Source of the DNA: Akkermansia sp.
GTDB taxonomy: Bacteria; Verrucomicrobiota; Verrucomicrobiia; Verrucomicrobiales; Akkermansiaceae
Assembly (NCBI GenBank): GCA_017409465.1
Contig: JAFQSQ010000006.1
Coordinates: 1 to 64,000, forward strand
Direction: 5' to 3'
Length of the DNA: 64,000 nucleotides
In this document: one piece after another, positions 2,670 through 36,084 of the stretch
How the letters are laid out: the number at the start of each line of letters is the position of its first letter
How positions within the stretch are numbered: the stretch's first letter is position 1
The notes under the pieces: generated by a model
Seen by the model: only the letters and a program-made list of their open reading frames with translations
What the model was told of the DNA's origin: nothing
Database searches by the model: none
Program-made: the position numbers and the translations under genes

Positions 2670-3398
2670 ATGGGTCTTGTTCACTCAGTCGAATCCTGCG
2701 GCACCGTGGATGGGCCGGGAATTCGCTTTATTCTGTTTTTGTCCGGGTGCAGCCTGCGCTGCCGTTATTGCCACAATCCGGACGCTTCCTACAAGCGCTG
2801 TGGCACGGAGCGGAGTGCGGAGGATGTGCTGGAGGAAATATCCCGCTACCGCGATTTCCTGGTAAATGCAGGCGGTGGTGTGACCATCTCCGGCGGTGAT
2901 CCCCTCTTCCAGCCGGAATTTACCCGTGCCATCCTGCGGGGCTGCAAGGCCATGGGACTGCACACCTGTCTGGACACCTCCGGGCATCTGGGATGCAACG
3001 CGGACGAGGAAATCCTCTCCCTCACGGATCTGGTACTGCTGGATATCAAAGCCTGGAATCCGGAGCAGTACCGGCTGGTAACGGCCCAGCCCCTCCAACC
3101 CACGCTGGACTTTGCCGAGCGTCTGGCCGCCCTGGGGAAGCCCGTCTGGCTGCGCTATGTACTCGTACCCGGGCTCACCGACCAGCTGGACGACATTGAG
3201 GCGCTGGCTCGCTATGCCTCCGGTCTGGGCAATATTCAGCGTGTGGACGTGCTGCCCTTCCACCAGATGGGGCGTTACAAATGGCAGAACCTTGGCCTCG
3301 ACTACACTCTGGCAGACACCGAGCCCCCCGAGCCCGAACTCACCGACCGCGTTCGCACCATCTTCCGTGTCAACGGCTTTGCCGACCGCACTTATTAA
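2670..3398 (+). CDS. pflA: Pyruvate formate-lyase activating enzyme (radical SAM)
   Basis: Uses a 4Fe-4S cluster and S-adenosylmethionine to abstract hydrogen from the PflB glycine (G730 of the upstream gene product), switching it on under anaerobiosis. At 242 residues it has family length. The cluster cysteines are C27, C31 and C34 in GCSLRCRYCHNPD, preceded by the typical N-terminal GTVDGPGIRF. Its position right after pflB fits. A weak start context and the terminator upstream suggest lower, separately controlled expression than pflB. Confidence 0.96.
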   Translation: MGLVHSVESCGTVDGPGIRFILFLSGCSLRCRYCHNPDASYKRCGTERSAEDVLEEISRYRDFLVNAGGGVTISGGDPLFQPEFTRAILRGCKAMGLHTCLDTSGHLGCNADEEILSLTDLVLLDIKAWNPEQYRLVTAQPLQPTLDFAERLAALGKPVWLRYVLVPGLTDQLDDIEALARYASGLGNIQRVDVLPFHQMGRYKWQNLGLDYTLADTEPPEPELTDRVRTIFRVNGFADRTY

Positions 3399-3427
3399 GT
3401 CGGCAAAACGCCCCTAAACTCCATCAT

Positions 3428-3517
3428 CCGTGGAAAATGTGCATGAGGAGCACAAAACTCCCGTGGAAAATGTGCACGAGAAGTACAAAACTCCCGTGAA
3501 AAATGTGCATGAGAAGC
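3428..3517. repeat. 33-bp tandem repeat, about 2.7 copies
   Basis: Units start at 3428, 3461 and 3494, each beginning CCGTGGAAAATGTGCA or a one-base variant and ending CACAAAACT or TACAAAACT; the third is partial. The period of 33 bases is a multiple of three, but the overlapping short frame does not look like a real protein. Confidence 0.8.
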
Positions 3518-3809
3518 TTGACCGAATGGTGGCATAGGGCATAATGTCAACGAAAGAGGGGAAGATGAAACGTTATTTGCTCACAGCTCTTGCCGATTGG
3601 AAAAAAAGTGTGTGCCGCAAGCCTTAAATCCTATTGTCAGAAATTTGAACCGACCATTTCCATTCGCACCTCCATGGCAAATTATCATGTGCAACAGATT
3701 CCGCTGAACGGGACAAAACGCAGCTATACTCAGCTGGATATCCCGTTGTATGCTCTCTCGCAGTTAGCCCGTGAGAGTGAAAGGTGGATGCCGTAAATGG
3801 GTAAGAGAT

Positions 3810-3899
3810 TCACTTCAGCTCATTGAGAATGAGCCGGGGCTTGGCGAGGCTGGAGTGAAAGCTGTCGAACTCGGTGCCGAGGCCGAGAGGATTCCTCCG
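3810..3899 (-). pseudogene. Remnant of a bioG C-terminus (29 codons plus stop)
   Basis: On the minus strand this encodes a 29-residue tail with NPLGLGTEFDSFH and LILNEL, ending in TGA. About 21 of the 29 residues equal the end of the intact bioG at 5746-6393, and 29 bases in a row are identical (GCTGTCGAACTCGGTGCCGA and flanks). Stops interrupt the frame immediately upstream. It includes the position of the catalytic His region (FDSFH). The two copies are direct repeats flanking the gene at 3988-5448, which suggests duplication or insertion at the bioG 3' end. Confidence 0.8.
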
Positions 3900-3987
3900 G
3901 CCTCGCCTGTTGGTGTCTCCCGGGCTCTACTATCCGCAGTCGCGGCTCGGCTAGCGAGCGAATGGCGGCAGGTATGGGGTGCTGCCT

Positions 3988-5448
3988 TTATTCCGGGGAT
4001 GTTGATTTCAGCATTTCTTCGATAGCGGGGATGGCGTTCTTGATATCGGCGTCAATGCTCCCGTGGTACCGGCATCTGCCGGTTCGATCGTAAATCGATA
4101 TCCCATCTTCCGGTACGGAGTCGTTATCCAGCGTGACATTTTTTGCCTGAGTAACAGGTGCTTTGAGTTTCAGTATCTTAGCATACTGCTTTGCCTTCTT
4201 CATATCAGCACCCTGTTCTACGATGTACAGAGTCGTAACCCCCTTTAACTTCTGAATTTTCTGTAGATTTTTGATAACTCCCTCTTTCTTGAAGTGTGCT
4301 TCCCATTCCTGGGGCGATGTTGAGTCGAGCATGCTATGCAGGGCCAGTTCCGAGACACAGACGAGGACAAAAACGTCTGCGTTCCAATTCGGTTTGCCGG
4401 AGGTGAACTTCAGTGCTTGTAGGGCCGAGACTCCCCGGGAGGCAAACTGTTCATTTTCTTTCGCTTCTTCCCGATATTTTTTCATCAGCTCCTTCATGTC
4501 ATCGTGACTCGCCTTCGTATTGGTCATCTCAAGCGTTTTCGCCTTCCTGTCATAGGAAACCGAGGCGCCTTCGGGGAACGTGAACCCTAAGCCTTTCATA
4601 TTGAATAAAACCGATTCCGCCTTACTAATGTCGGTATCTTTGTAAAAAAAGTCGCGGCCGATGTTCTTGTATTTTTGGGTAATCAATTCCTGCCCCTGGT
4701 GGTAGCGCCCCTCCGTTTGCTGGGTTTTGCTGAGGAGACTTTTATCCGGGACTGCCTTATAGAGAGCCAAGTGGGGGTGTGTGCCCTTAAGTACAGCTTT
4801 TGCATAGGCTCTCGTAGCTTTTTCACCGGCTTTCGCCGCAGTATCGTAATTCGTTTCTGCTGTTTGCCGAATGAAGGATAATTCATGCTCGTTACGAGTT
4901 CTGCCTTCCTTGATTGCTCTTTCCCGGTCGTAACGCACAGCTGCTTCGGCGACGGATTCTCTCTCTATGAATGCCTTTGCTTCGGGATGCCCTGCATCGG
5001 CAGCTTTTTTCATGGCATTAAGCTCCTCTTCCTGCAAAAGCTGGATTTGAGCACGGTCTTTCGCGATGGTTTCGCCCAGCCTTGCGATTGTTGCAGCATA
5101 CTTGGCCTCTTCGGTCTCCGCCTGTTGCAGTTCCTGAAAAGCCTTTTGTGCCGCGGCTTGCGCGGTGGCCTTATCCTGCTCAGTCGATGATTCTACGGCG
5201 TCTGAAGCTTCGCGATGCTTTTTTGTGGCCTGATGCCTTTTCTCTGCCGCAATCTCTTGCTTCTCTACGAGTTGAACCGAGTTGTCACATGCTTCCTTCA
5301 GCTGCACCATCAGCTTTTCGTATTTTTGCTTAGCCTCCCTGGCTCGGGCTACATCGGCAGCACCATCTGTGGCATAGGCGCCGGGGGTGATGATACTGCA
5401 AGTCAGAAATACGGCAGATGCTAAGAAAGGGAGTGCACGATTCTTCAT
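3988..5448 (-). CDS. Secreted coiled-coil protein with thioredoxin-like C-terminus, function unknown
   Basis: 486 residues. Residues 1-26 form a signal peptide (hydrophobic LPFLASAVFLTCSIITPGAYA). Residues about 30-160 are rich in Lys, Glu, Gln and Ala and predicted coiled coil. The last 130 residues resemble a thioredoxin-like fold (VFVLVCVSELALH, TLYIVEQGADMKKA, GISIYDRTGRCRYHGSID) but lack a CXXC pair, so a redox role is doubtful. The gene stands alone between two copies of the bioG 3' end. A perfect 9-3-9 palindrome lies 12 bases upstream of its ATG and a second palindrome of the same sequence 130 bases further up. The same pair occurs upstream of the lipoprotein island at 35.9 kb. It may be envelope stress or surface related; this is inference. 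Confidence 0.75.
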   Translation of the reverse strand: MKNRALPFLASAVFLTCSIITPGAYATDGAADVARAREAKQKYEKLMVQLKEACDNSVQLVEKQEIAAEKRHQATKKHREASDAVESSTEQDKATAQAAAQKAFQELQQAETEEAKYAATIARLGETIAKDRAQIQLLQEEELNAMKKAADAGHPEAKAFIERESVAEAAVRYDRERAIKEGRTRNEHELSFIRQTAETNYDTAAKAGEKATRAYAKAVLKGTHPHLALYKAVPDKSLLSKTQQTEGRYHQGQELITQKYKNIGRDFFYKDTDISKAESVLFNMKGLGFTFPEGASVSYDRKAKTLEMTNTKASHDDMKELMKKYREEAKENEQFASRGVSALQALKFTSGKPNWNADVFVLVCVSELALHSMLDSTSPQEWEAHFKKEGVIKNLQKIQKLKGVTTLYIVEQGADMKKAKQYAKILKLKAPVTQAKNVTLDNDSVPEDGISIYDRTGRCRYHGSIDADIKNAIPAIEEMLKSTSPE

Positions 5449-5459
5449 AGGGGTGAGTG

Positions 5460-5480
5460 TATCGCATTCCTAATGCGATA
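5460..5480. promoter_or_regulatory. Palindromic operator candidate P1
   Basis: TATCGCATT-CCT-AATGCGATA, a perfect 9-3-9 palindrome, 12 bases before the start codon of the 3988-5448 gene on the minus strand. Its half-site matches P2, P3 and P4. Confidence 0.6.
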
Positions 5481-5612
5481 GCAAGTCTTTTCACCCCGAA
5501 ATACTGCTGGTCAGCCCATTGCGCATTGGGTACGTACGATATCTTTCAGCGAACATTGCTCGTTATAAGGAAACCTTCCGATTGCGTTCAATGAACAATC
5601 TGTAATCCTGCT

Positions 5613-5631
5613 ATCGCATTTGAAATGCGAT
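5613..5631. promoter_or_regulatory. Palindromic operator candidate P2
   Basis: ATCGCATTT-G-AAATGCGAT, perfect 9-1-9 palindrome about 152 bases (centre to centre) from P1. It is the best copy of the motif shared with the 35.9-36.1 kb region. Confidence 0.6.
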
Positions 5632-5745
5632 GACGTATATATCATTGCCCTTGCTGAAATAAGTTTTTTTGTCAGCCTCTGAGTGAGGGTGAAAACCTGA
5701 TGCTCACCATCTCAGCTGCTGTGAAAAAAAGGTGCGAGATGGGCG

Positions 5746-6393
5746 TTATTGCAACTCGTTGAGGATGAGCTGAGGGTCTGCGAAGGGGTAGTGGAAGCTG
5801 TCGAACTCGGTGCCGAGGCCGAGGGGATTCCACCAGGCGCGCATGTTGTCCGGGGGGAAGATTTCATCGCGGGTGGCGATGTAGGCAGCATCCCATCGGA
5901 GGTGGGGAGTGGAGTCTTTGGCGGCGCGCTCGGCCAGCAGGTTGAGCTCATCGAGCTTTTCCTCAGCCGTGCGGTCAGGGTAGGATCCGGTGGGGATATA
6001 GCGTCCTTCTTCTCCTGCGGCGGCGAAGGGGTTGGCGCCGCCGCTGCGAATCATGCCGCGCATACTGCGCAGGACAACCCGCAGGCGCATGCCATAGCGT
6101 GGGTCGACGGGGCAGGGGGTGCCGTTGAGCGCTACGGCGCGGTGCAGGGGAAGCTCGCGGCAGCATTGCTCGCTCACCCACACGCCGAATGACCAGGCAA
6201 AGAGGTAGATGCGGCGGTAGCGGGCGAAGCGGGCAGGCTCCAGCGGCGCGAGGCTGCGGTGGTCGTAGCAGGCCAGCACATCGCAGCCCGGCGGGTCGAT
6301 GTGGCACACGGCATTGGGCGTGGCGGCCCAACCGAGCATGAAGATGACCAGATCCGGGTTGGAGTCATCGCGCTTGAGCCAGGCTTCCTGCAT
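5746..6393 (-). CDS. bioG: BioG-family pimeloyl-ACP methyl ester esterase (DUF452)
   Basis: Alpha/beta hydrolase expected to cleave pimeloyl-ACP methyl ester in biotin precursor synthesis. 215 residues, family length. Supporting motifs: N-terminal FMLGWAATPNAV (oxyanion region), CYDHRSL, the nucleophile serine S68 in FAWSFGVW, and a C-terminal His (H201) in FDSFHYPF. No other biotin gene lies nearby. It is the last gene of a tight minus-strand run (queD 14 bases upstream). The terminal 29 codons are duplicated at 3.8 kb. The family assignment is good; the substrate is inferred from the family. Confidence 0.85.
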   Translation of the reverse strand: MQEAWLKRDDSNPDLVIFMLGWAATPNAVCHIDPPGCDVLACYDHRSLAPLEPARFARYRRIYLFAWSFGVWVSEQCCRELPLHRAVALNGTPCPVDPRYGMRLRVVLRSMRGMIRSGGANPFAAAGEEGRYIPTGSYPDRTAEEKLDELNLLAERAAKDSTPHLRWDAAYIATRDEIFPPDNMRAWWNPLGLGTEFDSFHYPFADPQLILNELQ

Positions 6394-6407
6394 GGTCGCG
6401 TAAATGC

Positions 6408-6872
6408 TTATTCGCCGTATTCTGCCCAGGAGGAGCTGGTTTCCCAGACGCGTACGCGCTCCAGTTTCACGCAGTCGCGCACCGGGTAGCGGAGCGCACC
6501 GGATTTGGCTTTGTTGAGAGCCGCCTGCGCATGCCGGAACACAGCGTGAGCCATGGCCTCGCTGGTGGGATCCATCTGCTCAAAGGGGATGATGCGGTCG
6601 CCGTAGATGCTGCGAAAGACGGCATAATTCGGGTCGGCGGTGTTCATGCAGAGCGCGTGGTCGAACTGCTCCAGGAACTCGTTCATCATTTCCCCGATGG
6701 CCTTGAAATCCATCACCATTTCGTGGTCATCCAGCGTCTCAGCGGCAAAGACCAGCTCCACGCTGCGGGTGTGACCGTGCGGGAACTGGCAGTTGCCGGG
6801 GTGTTTGGAGAGCAGGTGCCCGCTCTCCAGCTCTATGCATTTGCAGATGCGGTACATGGAAGTATCAGGCAA
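6408..6872 (-). CDS. queD: 6-pyruvoyl-tetrahydropterin synthase / 6-carboxytetrahydropterin synthase family
   Basis: Converts dihydroneopterin triphosphate to a tetrahydropterin, usually 6-carboxytetrahydropterin for queuosine (preQ0) synthesis. The CxxxHGH signature (C28, H32, H34) supplies the catalytic Cys and zinc ligands; H19 (SGHLL) is the third likely ligand. The C-terminal [13 protein letters not shown] carries the conserved Glu. 154 residues from the first start, which overlaps fucU by 8 bases; the ATG at 6857 (MYRICKC) would remove the overlap. The other queuosine genes are not in the window, so a PTPS paralogue with a different product is possible. Confidence 0.88.
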
Positions 6873-7284
6873 TCGGGGTGACGCCTTTCTTCAGAATGAT
6901 GTTGCCGTACTTGGCCGTCTCACCGGTAATCACCACGGCATAGGCAGCCTTGGCGCGGTCGTAGAAAGCATAGCGCTCCATGCGCTCGATGTCGCCCTCA
7001 TAGCCGAGAGCGGCGCGGTACTTGGCCTCTACGGCGGGGTCAAGGGTATCGCCCGGCACGGCAGCCATCATGATGACCGGGGTGGCGTAAGCATCCAGTT
7101 CAAAGAGGGGAATCATGCCTGCCAGGATGGCATCAGCCCCCACGCCGTCGGCGCGCACCACGGTGTCGTTGAAGGTGTGGGCGGGGAAATGAGCGTCGGA
7201 GATGACGATTTCATCACCATGGCCCATTTCGGCCATAATCTTGAGCAGATTCGGAGAGATGACAGGAGAAATACCTTTTAACAT
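6865..7284 (-). CDS. fucU: L-fucose mutarotase (RbsD/FucU family)
   Basis: Interconverts the anomers of fucose so it can enter catabolism; cytosolic decamer in known members. 139 residues, with the family signature [15 protein letters not shown] (H22 and D30 in the active site) and the C-terminal [11 protein letters not shown] carrying the conserved Tyr. Fucose is a main mucin sugar, which fits a mucin-degrading lifestyle. It sits 49 bases after an iron alcohol dehydrogenase that might reduce fucose-derived lactaldehyde; that link is inference. Confidence 0.93.
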
Positions 7285-7333
7285 AACACGTGTATCATGC
7301 CATAATTGATGCCGCGAGTCAATCTAAATGCCA

Positions 7334-12511: not shown

Positions 12512-13219
12512 ATGGCCGTTATGGATGATTCCCGCCCCTTCGTTGTGTGCCACATGCTGGTTTCTCAGAATGGCCGTGTGACCGGTGATTTCCTGGCCGA
12601 TGCTGCCTGTGCAGATGCCTGCGAAGCGTATTACGACCTGAACCGCGATGACTCCGCGCAGGCTTTTGCCTGCGGGCGGGTGACAATGGAGGGGAGCTTT
12701 ACCGGCGGCTGGCAGCCGGAGTGGGAGCAATGGGAAACCGTAGCGGTGTCGCCCGGTGATTTTGTGGCTCCTGCGGCGGCCGGGGCGCGCCGGTTGGCCG
12801 TGGCCTTCGACCGCTGCGGCCGACTGGGGTGGAAAGCGGCCTGTATCGAAGATGCTGACCCGGGATACGGTGGAGCTCATGTGGTAGAGGTTCTTTCATC
12901 TGCCGTTGCTCCGGCGCATCTGGCCTATTTTCGGGAAGTGGGCGTTTCCTATATTATAGCGGATAACCTGTGCGAGGCGCTGGTGCGCCTGCACACGCTC
13001 TTTGGGGTGGAGCGCCTCCTGCTGGAGGGTGGGGCTGTGCTCAATGAGGCGTTTCTGACCGCCGGACTGGTGGATGAACTGAGTCTGGTGCATGCCCCGC
13101 TCATGGCAGAGCCCGGAGATGCCCCGCTCTTTGCAGCGGCTCCGCTGCCCCCCGTAGCAGATGAAGTGACCCGCTATGTTCGCGGAATCAGCTGCACTTC
13201 CTCCCGGCTGCTGCGCTGA
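12512..13219 (+). CDS. RibD C-terminal domain (dihydrofolate-reductase-like) protein
   Basis: 235 residues from the ATG at 12512 (MAVMDDSRPFVVCHMLVSQNG); an upstream TTG at 12479 is in frame but adds a non-family leader. Motifs of the RibD_C reductase fold: N-terminal CHMLVSQNGRVTGDF, central FACGRVTMEGS and C-terminal RLLLEGGAVLNEAFL, which binds NADPH. Relatives reduce the riboflavin intermediate 2,5-diamino-6-ribosylamino-pyrimidinone phosphate or act on unknown pterin-like substrates. No deaminase domain and no riboflavin genes nearby, so the substrate is open. Confidence 0.85.
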   Translation: MAVMDDSRPFVVCHMLVSQNGRVTGDFLADAACADACEAYYDLNRDDSAQAFACGRVTMEGSFTGGWQPEWEQWETVAVSPGDFVAPAAAGARRLAVAFDRCGRLGWKAACIEDADPGYGGAHVVEVLSSAVAPAHLAYFREVGVSYIIADNLCEALVRLHTLFGVERLLLEGGAVLNEAFLTAGLVDELSLVHAPLMAEPGDAPLFAAAPLPPVADEVTRYVRGISCTSSRLLR

Positions 13220-29840: not shown

Positions 29841-32417
29841 TCAATAATATTGTTTCAATATCCTTTTAGCATTCTCATCCCCCCCGTCTGCTGCTTTGCG
29901 AAACCACTTCTTCGCCTCCTGTCGGTCACGCTTCACCCCCTCGCCGTTGTAGTAGCACGCACCCAGGTTATGCTGAGCCTCGACAATTCCCTGCTCCGCA
30001 GCTGCGCGATACCACTTCACCGCCTCCTCAGCATCTTTCGCCACGCCATCGCCCATGTCATAGCACACGCCCAGGTTGAACTGCGCCCGGTCATGCCCCT
30101 GCTCCGCGGCCTGCCGATACCACTTCACTGCCTCGGCATCATCCTCCGGCACGCCATCACCCATGCTATAGCAAAAGCCCAAGCGGAACTGTGCCTCAGC
30201 ATTCCCCTGCTCTGCGGCCAGGCGATACCACTTCACTGCCTCCGCTGCATCTTTCGGCACGCCATCGCCCACGGAGTAACTCATGCCCAATAGGAGCTGT
30301 GCCTTGGCATGCCCCTGCTCTGCGGCCTGCCGATACCACTTCACTGCCTCGGCATCATCCTCCGGCACGCCATCACCCATGCTATAGCAAAAGCCCAAGC
30401 GGAACTGTGCCTCAGCATTCACCTGCTCTGCGGCCAGGCGATACCACTTCACCGCCTCCGCGGCATCTTTCGGCACGCCCTCGCCCACAGAGTAACTCAT
30501 GCCCAAAAGGAGCTGCGCCTCGGCTTGCCCCTGCTCCGCGGCCTGCCGATACCACTTCACAGCCTCAGCATCATCCTCCGGCACGCCCTCGCCATTATCA
30601 TAACACAAGCCCAAGACGCACTGCGCCTGGACATGCCCCTGCTCCGTGGCCAAGCGGTACCATTTCACAGCCTCGGCATCATCCTCCGCCACGCCCTCGC
30701 CGTCAGCATAGCACACGCCCAGGTTGTACTGCGCCTCGGCATGCCCCTGCTCTGCTGCCGCGCGATACCACTTCACAGCTTCCACAGCATCTTTCGCCAC
30801 GCCATCGCCGTTAACATAGCACGCGCCCAGGCTACACTGCGCATCGGCATCCCCTTGCTCCGCTGCCGCGCGATACCACTTCACAGCCTCCACAGCATCT
30901 TTCGGCACGCCATCTCCCTTGGCATAACACACGCCCAGGTTGTTCTGCGCCTCGGCATGCCCCTGCTCTGCAGCCGCGCGAAACCACTTCACCGCCTCCG
31001 CAACATCTTTCGCCACGCCATCGCCGTTAGCATAGCACACGCCCAAGTTACACTGCGCCTCGGCATGCCCTTGCTCCGCTGCCGCGCGATACCACTTCGC
31101 CGCCTCGGTATCATCCTCCGGCACGCCATCGCCTTTGTCATAACACGAGCCCAGGTTGTACTGCGCCCGGGCATAGCCCTGCTCCGCTGCCGCGCGATAC
31201 CACTTCACAGCTTCCACAGCATCTTTCGCCACGCCATCGCCTTTGTCATAACACGAGCCCAGGTTGTACTGCGCCTGGTCATGCCCCTGCTCTGCTGCCG
31301 CGCGATACCACTTCGCCGCCTCGGTATCATCCTCCGGCACGCCATATCCATCGGCATAGCACGCGCCCAAAATATACTGTGCCATAGCATTCCCCTGCTC
31401 TGCAGCCGCGCGAAACCACTTCACTGCCTCCGCATCATCCTCCGGCATGCCATATCCATTAGCATAACACACGCCCATGTTGTACTGCGCCTCAGCATCC
31501 CCCTGCTCTGCGGCCAAGCGACACCACTTCACCGCCTCCACGGCATCTTTCGCCACGCCGTTGCCATTAGCATAGCACACGCCCATGTTGTACTGCGCCT
31601 TGGCATGCCCCTGCTCTGCGGCCGCGCGAAACCACTTCACCGCCTCCGCAGCATCCTCCGGCACGCCCGCCCCCTTGGCATAATGCTCGCCCAGCTTGTA
31701 CTGTGCATCGGCGTGCCCCAGCTCGGCTGCCAGTCGATACCACTTTACCGCCTTAGCATCATCCTTCTGTGCGACCGCGCCATTAAGATAGAGCATACTC
31801 AGTCGGGACTTCATTCCGGCAGGATCGCGCTCCGCTGCTGCGCGGAACCACTTCATCGCCTCGGCATCATCTTCCGGCACTACCCTGCCCTCAGCATAGA
31901 ACAAGCCCAGGAAGAACTGCGCATCGGCATCCCCCAGCTCTGCTGCCGTGCGATACCACTTCACCGCTTCGGCTTCATCCTCCGGCACGCCATCGCCTTT
32001 ATCATAGCAGAAGCCCAGAAGATACTGCGCCCGGGCATAGCCCTGCTCCGCTGCCGCGCGATACCACTTCACCGCCTCCGCAGCATCTTGCCCCACCCCT
32101 GTACCGGCGCTGAAACACTGCCCCAGCAGCTGCTGCGCCGGAGCATAGCCCGCCTCTGCCGCCTTCCTCAGCAGCTCCACGGCCTTTGACGGATTCGCCG
32201 CTGCACCCTCCCCGCTCAGCAATTGCTGCGCCTCGGCATACTGCGCTTCGGCAGAAGAAAACCAGGAGCATACCTCCTGTCGTATATCACCGGAAAGAGC
32301 CAATACACCGCCGGCTCCCAGGCACACACTGCCCACCGCCACCCCGGCCACCGCGAGGATGAATGGCGCCCTGCTCTTTCGAGCCGCTGACTGCTGTTGA
32401 TTATCTGCTTGTTGCAT
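29841..32417 (-). CDS. Membrane-anchored Sel1-repeat protein (858 aa)
   Basis: N-terminal basic segment, a membrane helix at about 19-42 (FILAVAGVAVGSVCLGAGGV), then about 22 Sel1 repeats of 36 residues (108 bp) to the C-terminus. Many repeats are nearly identical; bases 30129-30338 and 30345-30554 repeat at exactly 216 bp (two Sel1 units), a recent tandem duplication. Probably an extracytoplasmic protein-binding solenoid. It is in tandem with the 701-aa paralogue and downstream of a five-gene lipoprotein operon that contains two more Sel1 proteins. Confidence 0.88.
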   Translation of the reverse strand: MQQADNQQQSAARKSRAPFILAVAGVAVGSVCLGAGGVLALSGDIRQEVCSWFSSAEAQYAEAQQLLSGEGAAANPSKAVELLRKAAEAGYAPAQQLLGQCFSAGTGVGQDAAEAVKWYRAAAEQGYARAQYLLGFCYDKGDGVPEDEAEAVKWYRTAAELGDADAQFFLGLFYAEGRVVPEDDAEAMKWFRAAAERDPAGMKSRLSMLYLNGAVAQKDDAKAVKWYRLAAELGHADAQYKLGEHYAKGAGVPEDAAEAVKWFRAAAEQGHAKAQYNMGVCYANGNGVAKDAVEAVKWCRLAAEQGDAEAQYNMGVCYANGYGMPEDDAEAVKWFRAAAEQGNAMAQYILGACYADGYGVPEDDTEAAKWYRAAAEQGHDQAQYNLGSCYDKGDGVAKDAVEAVKWYRAAAEQGYARAQYNLGSCYDKGDGVPEDDTEAAKWYRAAAEQGHAEAQCNLGVCYANGDGVAKDVAEAVKWFRAAAEQGHAEAQNNLGVCYAKGDGVPKDAVEAVKWYRAAAEQGDADAQCSLGACYVNGDGVAKDAVEAVKWYRAAAEQGHAEAQYNLGVCYADGEGVAEDDAEAVKWYRLATEQGHVQAQCVLGLCYDNGEGVPEDDAEAVKWYRQAAEQGQAEAQLLLGMSYSVGEGVPKDAAEAVKWYRLAAEQVNAEAQFRLGFCYSMGDGVPEDDAEAVKWYRQAAEQGHAKAQLLLGMSYSVGDGVPKDAAEAVKWYRLAAEQGNAEAQFRLGFCYSMGDGVPEDDAEAVKWYRQAAEQGHDRAQFNLGVCYDMGDGVAKDAEEAVKWYRAAAEQGIVEAQHNLGACYYNGEGVKRDRQEAKKWFRKAADGGDENAKRILKQYY
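30129..30554. repeat. 216-bp tandem duplication inside the Sel1 gene
   Basis: Two copies of a two-unit Sel1 block, offset exactly 216 bases (2 x 108), with few differences over more than 180 bases. Such repeats will recombine readily and change protein length. Confidence 0.85.
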
Positions 32418-35932: not shown

Positions 35933-35951
35933 ACAGCATTTCAAATGCGAT
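35933..35951. promoter_or_regulatory. Palindromic operator candidate P3
   Basis: ACAGCATTT-C-AAATGCGAT; the right arm is identical to P2 and the left arm matches 7 of 9. It lies 36 bases upstream of the first lipoprotein gene, the same relative place as P1. Confidence 0.6.
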
Positions 35952-36065
35952 ATACGGGAGTCAACTAAGAGTGAAAGTATTATGCTGACATTCGTTTGCA
36001 CGACGTCCCTTTGAAACTCCCTTTTTTCGGATGCTAACTCTTTATTTTTTCCGTTTTTCCTTGAT

Positions 36066-36084
36066 ATCGCATTTGAAATACGAT
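36066..36084. promoter_or_regulatory. Palindromic operator candidate P4
   Basis: ATCGCATTT-G-AAATACGAT, one mismatch from P2, 133 bases (centre to centre) from P3. It lies between the lipoprotein operon and the divergent dus gene (ATG 103 bases away) and could affect either. Confidence 0.6.

Follow-up and report, generated by a model that had tools for sequence, protein, structure and literature searches.

Duplicated bioG ends around a secreted-protein gene in an Akkermansia genome: a candidate scar of homology-assisted import

The gene bioG of one Akkermansia genome is followed by a second, decayed copy of a bioG 3' end, and between the two copies lies a single gene for a putative secreted protein, here called gene T. 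The locus is part of a window (the whole stretch of DNA that was analysed) of 64,000 nucleotides, positions 1 to 64,000 of contig JAFQSQ010000006.1 in assembly GCA_017409465.1. This assembly is an incomplete, multi-contig Akkermansia-type genome (2.03 Mb, 61 contigs, 76.7% complete), and it was compared with the other members of a sample of 76 genomes of the genus, itself included, which carry labels of the type G000; its two nearest relatives are G014 and G029. The best named matches for the locus were Akkermansiaceae bacterium SIG73 and Akkermansia sp. RGIG4746. The repeat is real in the sequence, and the best supported reading, to which we give about an even chance of being right, is that a homology-assisted import, an ordinary event, left the two bioG ends behind as its scar.

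Self-comparison of 14 kb around the locus revealed a direct repeat of 97 nt (3816-3912 and 5752-5848) with 78/97 positions equal, 19 mismatches and a longest identical run of 29 bases (E = 2e-19, far beyond chance). An earlier note, made from the letters of this DNA, had described a duplicated bioG end with 21 of 29 residues equal and a 29-base identical stretch, and both figures were recovered. The remnant tail, ending in NPLGLGTEFDSFHSSLAKPRLILNELK before its stop (3810-3899), and the intact tail, ending in NPLGLGTEFDSFHYPFADPQLILNELQ before its stop (5746-5835), share 21/29 residues as counted by eye. The coordinates given earlier for the first copy stand; the end given for the second, 5836, is one base too long. 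The claim that exactly one gene lies between the copies also held, one long open reading frame (ORF) being plausible as a gene. Homology of the remnant to bioG ended near 3912, since 222/500 shuffles reached the score of 3913-3990 against the next part of bioG. A longer remnant extending to 3989, suggested by a protein match (E 1.3e-8) that spanned three stops, was rejected because the sequence beyond 3912 did no better than shuffles. Across 103 nt, the remnant was the most diverged of the four copies compared, with 20-27 differences to the other three (22/103 to the intact end). Private changes numbered 15 in the remnant, 2 in the intact end, 4 in G014 and 7 in G029, and an excess of this size over the intact end identifies the remnant as dead sequence. 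Its age is perhaps close to that of the split from G014 (divergence at fourfold sites 0.17-0.25).

An empty site, which the earlier note had proposed to look for, was found in both G014 and G029, each with one bioG end and without the inserted gene. In G014, the pflA-type gene ends at 13056 and the bioG stop starts at 13166 of the contig (~110 bp apart), with nothing between; the corresponding gap in G029 is ~70 bp and is also empty. Neither T, nor the ATPase fragment described below, nor a second bioG end was present at the pflA-bioG site of these two genomes. In the genome studied here, the stops of pflA and bioG are ~2.35 kb apart, and the gap holds the decayed ATPase gene, the decayed bioG end, and T with a pair of palindromes. 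The pflA orthologue adjoining bioG was 97% identical at the amino acid level in G014 and 92% in G029. Protein searches detected bioG in 54 of the 76 genomes, and a second match was unique to this one, the other 53/53 giving a single match; the refuting condition set in the earlier note, all relatives carrying both copies, was thus not borne out. The sequence downstream of bioG was viewed in 29 of these 53 genomes (the own locus, whose view ends before the remnant, was not counted). None of the 33 loci, viewed over 1.05-5 kb, had a second bioG end, T or the ATPase gene, and no exact palindrome of the CGCATT or CGGATT type described below was found in them. Among the same 29 genomes, pflA was downstream of bioG in G014 and G029 only.

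Because a decayed ATPase gene, absent from the earlier note, sits between pflA and the remnant, the contents of the pflA-bioG gap indicate that two or more DNA segments have entered it. Window positions 3428-3602 and 3620-3762 matched two stretches of G026 that are ~1.1 kb apart; two-part matches were also found in G031, G035 and G036, and any match at all in 9/76 genomes (own included). Intact ORFs of this gene encode 447 aa in G026 and 451 aa in G035, and the G026 product contains the Pfam domains AAA_14 and DUF4143. Submitted alone, the two fragments gave no Pfam match in one case and a sub-threshold, unrelated match in the other. Repeats similar to the three 33-nt units upstream of the decayed gene were found upstream of the ATPase gene elsewhere (two before the intact AAA_14/DUF4143-like gene in G035, one partial in G026). 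The units of the window contain TGTGC...GCACA.

Comparison of the flanking genes showed statistically that the bioG-queD-fucU region of this genome is a mosaic. To the left, this genome is closest to G014 (pflA fourfold differences 0.20 vs 0.32-0.33). Across bioG-queD-fucU, closeness to G014 is confined to the middle (~6151-7030), with this genome standing apart at both edges. In a two-breakpoint scan, the share of variable sites private to this genome was 15% within 6151-7030 but 50% in the flanks (p = 0.0014, 5000 permutations). Sites at which only G029 differs were concentrated in 6100-6738 (64% vs 25%, p = 0.0008), and the same scan found no comparable pattern for G014-only sites (p = 0.31). 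The excess of private sites in this genome was clearest in 6046-6145 and 6946-7307. One breakpoint was estimated inside bioG near 6150, so that the intact bioG end falls in the diverged tract; at fourfold sites of bioG, 0/41 differed from G014 in the first 85 codons and 17/62 in the remainder (Fisher 7.5e-5). The left edge of the mosaic adjoins T, and the right edge adjoins a break in synteny at 7307. All four informative sites group the remnant with G014 and the intact end with G029, and none supports either of the other two groupings. Since these sites are few and close together, the siding of the remnant with G014 is only suggestive of its being the native end.

Table 1. Features of the pflA-bioG locus in window coordinates.
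Feature	Position	Strand	Basis
pflA-type gene (radical SAM activating enzyme), flanking the native site on its left	2670-3398	+	Pfam Radical_SAM and Fer4_12
Tandem array of three 33-nt units preceding the decayed ATPase gene	3428-3526	+	Self-comparison repeat search
Decayed AAA_14/DUF4143-type ATPase gene, internal deletion near 3602-3620	3565-3796	+	Matches both ends of the G026 447-aa gene
bioG 3'-end remnant: 29 codons, stop and a few more bases upstream	3810-3912	-	Direct repeat with the intact end
Gene T, 486 aa: signal peptide (by eye), a long helical region and a thioredoxin-type fold at the C terminus	3988-5448	-	ORF list, structure model
Left palindrome ATCGCATT-CCT-AATGCGAT of the inverted-repeat pair	5461-5479	.	
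Promoter-like site TTGAAC-18-TATAAC facing T, inside the palindrome pair (weak)	5562-5591	-	Best score on the strand
Right palindrome ATCGCATT-TGA-AATGCGAT; spacer differs from the reverse complement of the left spacer	5613-5631	.	
Intact bioG, pimeloyl-ACP methyl esterase family	5746-6393	-	Pfam BioG 2e-25
Diverged bioG 3' tract, inferred to be imported together with T	5746-6150	-	Divergence comparison, breakpoint scan

Gene T had no Pfam match. Its structure model (mean pLDDT 61) gave no Foldseek match at E <= 0.001; the C-terminal domain matched ResA-type thioredoxin folds with a Foldseek probability of 1.00, a best E of 5e-3 and a target TM of ~0.46-0.59 in the top-ranking matches. The earlier description of T as thioredoxin-like is supported for the fold only. 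No CXXC pair was seen by eye in the T translation, and because of this a thiol-disulfide role is unlikely. By E-value, the nearest relative of T is a paralogue in its own genome (contig C20, 26% identity), which has a palindrome upstream as well. Other matches were partial, at 26-43% identity, and occurred in 12/76 genomes of the genus at E <= 0.001, own included; a sample covering the order gave matches in 2/288 genomes at E <= 1e-6, again own included. A viral origin was considered and dropped, a scan of viral contigs that detects close relatives only having returned no match. A search by sequence for a relative of solved structure gave a single match at E 0.95, which was ignored.

The palindrome pair announced in the earlier note was recovered upstream of T, and it proved to be one of many in this genome. 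Its arms (5461-5483 and 5609-5631) are 23 nt long, 91% complementary and separated by 125 nt, forming a paired inverted repeat, and the start codon of T (5448) is 12 bp from the first palindrome (5461), which places the pair directly upstream of a putative secreted-protein gene. The motif ATCGCATT-NNN-AATGCGAT occurred at 34 sites in the genome with up to 2 mismatches, vs 1 for the reversed control. Of these sites, 27 belong to paired palindromes spaced 124-199 bp apart, which make up 14 loci (3 mismatches being present in some partners), and 7 have no partner under the pairing rule applied. At 12/14 pair loci, the gene immediately downstream of the pair starts with what resembles a signal peptide, as judged by eye. 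PEP-CTERM was found in 4/4 of the neighbouring genes tested with Pfam, three of which adjoin pairs and the fourth a single palindrome. When promoter-like sites were scored, the interiors of other pairs scored like that of the T pair. The pair upstream of T is probably an invertible promoter. At 13 of the 14 loci, the three-base spacers of the two palindromes are reverse complements of each other, and the exception is the T pair (CCT vs TCA). A locus with three palindromes (L067) had one of its three spacer combinations mismatched. Matched spacers were also the rule in relatives: 5/7 pairs in G014, and, among listed sites, 15/15 in G001 and 12/13 in G004. Palindromes with up to 3 mismatches were counted for the own genome and G014, and listed sites only for G001 and G004; the reverse-complement criterion is a regularity seen in this analysis, not a published one. 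A second palindrome region of the inverton type is present in the window at 35933-36084.

Collectively, these data are consistent with an event in which donor DNA from another Akkermansia lineage carried T, its palindrome pair and the 3' part of bioG. A crossover would have taken place inside bioG near 6150, and the other side would have been joined, with little or no homology, next to the native bioG end. The tail of the intact bioG would then be the imported one, and the native tail, severed and left beside pflA, would be decaying. T would be one of a set of dispersed phase-variable secreted or surface genes, and the palindromes would serve as recombinase sites, inversion turning the T promoter toward or away from T. 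Because the spacers are mismatched, this copy of T may switch poorly or not at all. Homology-facilitated illegitimate recombination and homologous import of accessory genes form a familiar class of events. The locus resembles such imports in that relatives have an empty site, the accessory gene adjoins a conserved gene that contains a diverged tract and a breakpoint, and the junction on the other side lacks homology; it differs in that no donor was found and its left junction matched no donor sequence. Of the two origins offered in the earlier note, recombination with a related strain is the one favoured by the empty site, the diverged tract and the likeness of the remnant to G014. The locus would be a well-preserved scar of the entry of a lineage-specific secreted-protein gene among housekeeping genes, in which the empty site, the likely breakpoint and the dead end can all be read.

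Several observations weigh against this interpretation. No donor for T was identified, and no close relative of it was found in the 76 genomes of the genus or the 288 sampled genomes of the order. Fourfold sites are also unevenly divergent along bioG, in the same direction, when this genome is compared with G029 (4/39 vs 17/61) and when G014 is compared with G029 (3/36 vs 16/65). Positions 5746-6045 are variable in all three genomes (private sites: 21 in this genome, 22 in G014, 16 in G029), which weakens the left edge of the mosaic, and the bioG tail may simply be a fast region. The four informative sites lie within 28 bases and possibly record one event. As regards the switch, mismatched spacers occur elsewhere in the genus (2/7 pairs in G014 and 1/13 among the listed sites of G004), and a thresholded promoter scan found no promoter inside the T pair. 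The single pair interior compared with that of a relative (L057 vs L094) aligned in neither orientation; as a candidate for inversion between species, this comparison was set aside as uninformative. Finally, the join at the insert is that of the assembly, and inversion of the pair is a prediction from sequence pattern.

Among the alternatives, the roles of the two ends could be reversed, a donor with a bioG end beside T or the ATPase gene having supplied 3400-5745 and the intact tail being native. The remnant is indeed the most diverged copy, and the ATPase gene beside it is absent from the empty site. We nevertheless consider this unlikely: the remnant agrees with the sister genome G014 at 4/4 informative sites, which would be expected of a native end, the intact tail falls within the diverged tract, and neither T nor the ATPase gene followed bioG in any of the 29 genomes viewed. 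Somewhat less likely again is an old local duplication, in which an ancestor doubled its bioG end and acquired T between the two ends, and recombination across the repeats later removed the insert from G014 and from G029. Such direct repeats are able to recombine out, and the decay of the remnant would fit an age near the G014 split; two independent clean losses would, however, be required, and 0/4 informative sites group the remnant with the intact end. On the same count, the idea that this genome had recently duplicated its bioG end in tandem was rejected. That the bioG loci of two strains were joined in a metagenome assembly is improbable. The genome is incomplete and in many contigs, and contigs of relatives often end at palindromes (5/24 within 300 bp of an end in G014, 0.3 expected); against this, the remnant has 15 changes seen in none of the three other copies compared, the adjoining ATPase gene is itself decayed, and the bioG ends are identical over 29 consecutive bases at most.

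Genomic islands that integrate at the 3' ends of genes are a familiar class of insertion, and a duplicated gene end flanks the insert here as it does there. A site-specific element that targets gene 3' ends and supplies a replacement end, the first origin in the earlier note, is nevertheless very improbable, even though the insert has a copy of one gene's end on either side and an empty site exists: no integrase was found between the copies in the ORF list (the 8 PF00589 matches of the genome are all on other contigs), the repeats agree at only 80% of 97 nt, where att-type copies would be near-identical, the insert is one gene only, and no second bioG end followed bioG in the 29 other genomes viewed.

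In A. muciniphila, reads showed both orientations of invertons (invertible promoters) that have arms CGGATT..AATCCG and are linked to capsule switching, according to PMC13343947, which also links capsule phase variation in Akkermansia to the mucus layer; an Akkermansia inverton group is reported in PMC11892184. The palindromes described here resemble those invertons (e.g. the one upstream of the capsule locus cps1) in their palindromic core CG.ATT-NNN-AAT.CG flanking a short intergenic stretch, and in recurring many times in a genome close to surface or secreted genes. Unlike the published arms, those found here are CGCATT..AATGCG, and the spacers of the T pair are mismatched. The CGCATT motif was not named in the literature listings searched, and titles returned for AATGCGAT with Akkermansia (titles only) were all unrelated.

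Across the genus, the arm types varied from one group of genomes to another. In this genome, 26 exact sites are of the CGCATT type and 1 is of the CGGATT type. The CGGATT type reached 22-88 exact sites in 14 of the 76 genomes (e.g. G001, G004, G044 and G045), the CGCATT type 21-26 sites in G000, G014, G022 and G029 and 13-48 in six others, and the CGTATT type 28 sites in G067, 20 in G071 and 11 in G068. Three arm types that differ by one base thus dominate different genomes, and some genomes hold two of them (G067, 32 CGCATT and 28 CGTATT; G045, 88 CGGATT and 11 CGCATT). A single CGCATT-ACG-AATGCG site, or its complement, was present in each of the 21 genomes with a full list of sites (G001-G021), even in those without other sites of the CGCATT type, and is thus a conserved single copy.

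The wider reach of the analysis lies in this switch family, in which arms differ by one base between genome groups and the spacer is mostly matched within a pair and variable between pairs. The regularity is one of sequence patterns only. It opens both the specificity of the recombinase and the matching of spacers to direct testing, in a gut genus whose capsule phase variation is tied to the mucus layer (PMC13343947). A broader and rather doubtful proposal is that phase-variable surface genes act as exchangeable cassettes that enter beside conserved genes, through recombination within the neighbouring gene, and leave dead ends behind, under a two-part switch address. If this were true, the arms would be set by the recombinase of the lineage (CGGATT, CGCATT or CGTATT) and inversion would require matching of a private three-base spacer, so that an import with mismatched spacers, like T, would be locked in one state.

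Beyond bioG lie genes with PTPS (queD-type) and RbsD_FucU domains. Synteny with G014 and G029 ends at 7307, just upstream of the fucU-type gene, and an alcohol-dehydrogenase-like gene (by eye) comes next here; the rows for this gene were dropped from the fourfold comparison because, with synteny ending at 7307, they are not orthologues. Beyond the break, G014 has a 208-aa gene and an ABC-type gene (by eye), whose counterpart is on another contig of the genome studied (C44:10786-12443).

Two arrays of palindromes were observed in G014 amid repeats, one with six copies and the spacer TCG/CGA (L089, C26:34000-53000) and one with five and TCT/AGA (L095, C41:4000-22000). Judged by their layout, they are possible clusters for multi-site shuffling of promoters or genes. 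Besides the 5/24 palindromes of G014 already mentioned, at least 4/24 in G029 lay within 300 bp of a contig end (0.6 expected). This is suggestive of assemblies breaking at inverting DNA or at repeats, and of both orientations only in that sense. In a search for further duplicated gene ends, self-comparison of 17 own and 12 G014 stretches at palindrome loci, and of two window stretches, showed other direct repeats. Tandem repeats of ~108 nt form long arrays in the window at 30001-32163 and at locus L088.

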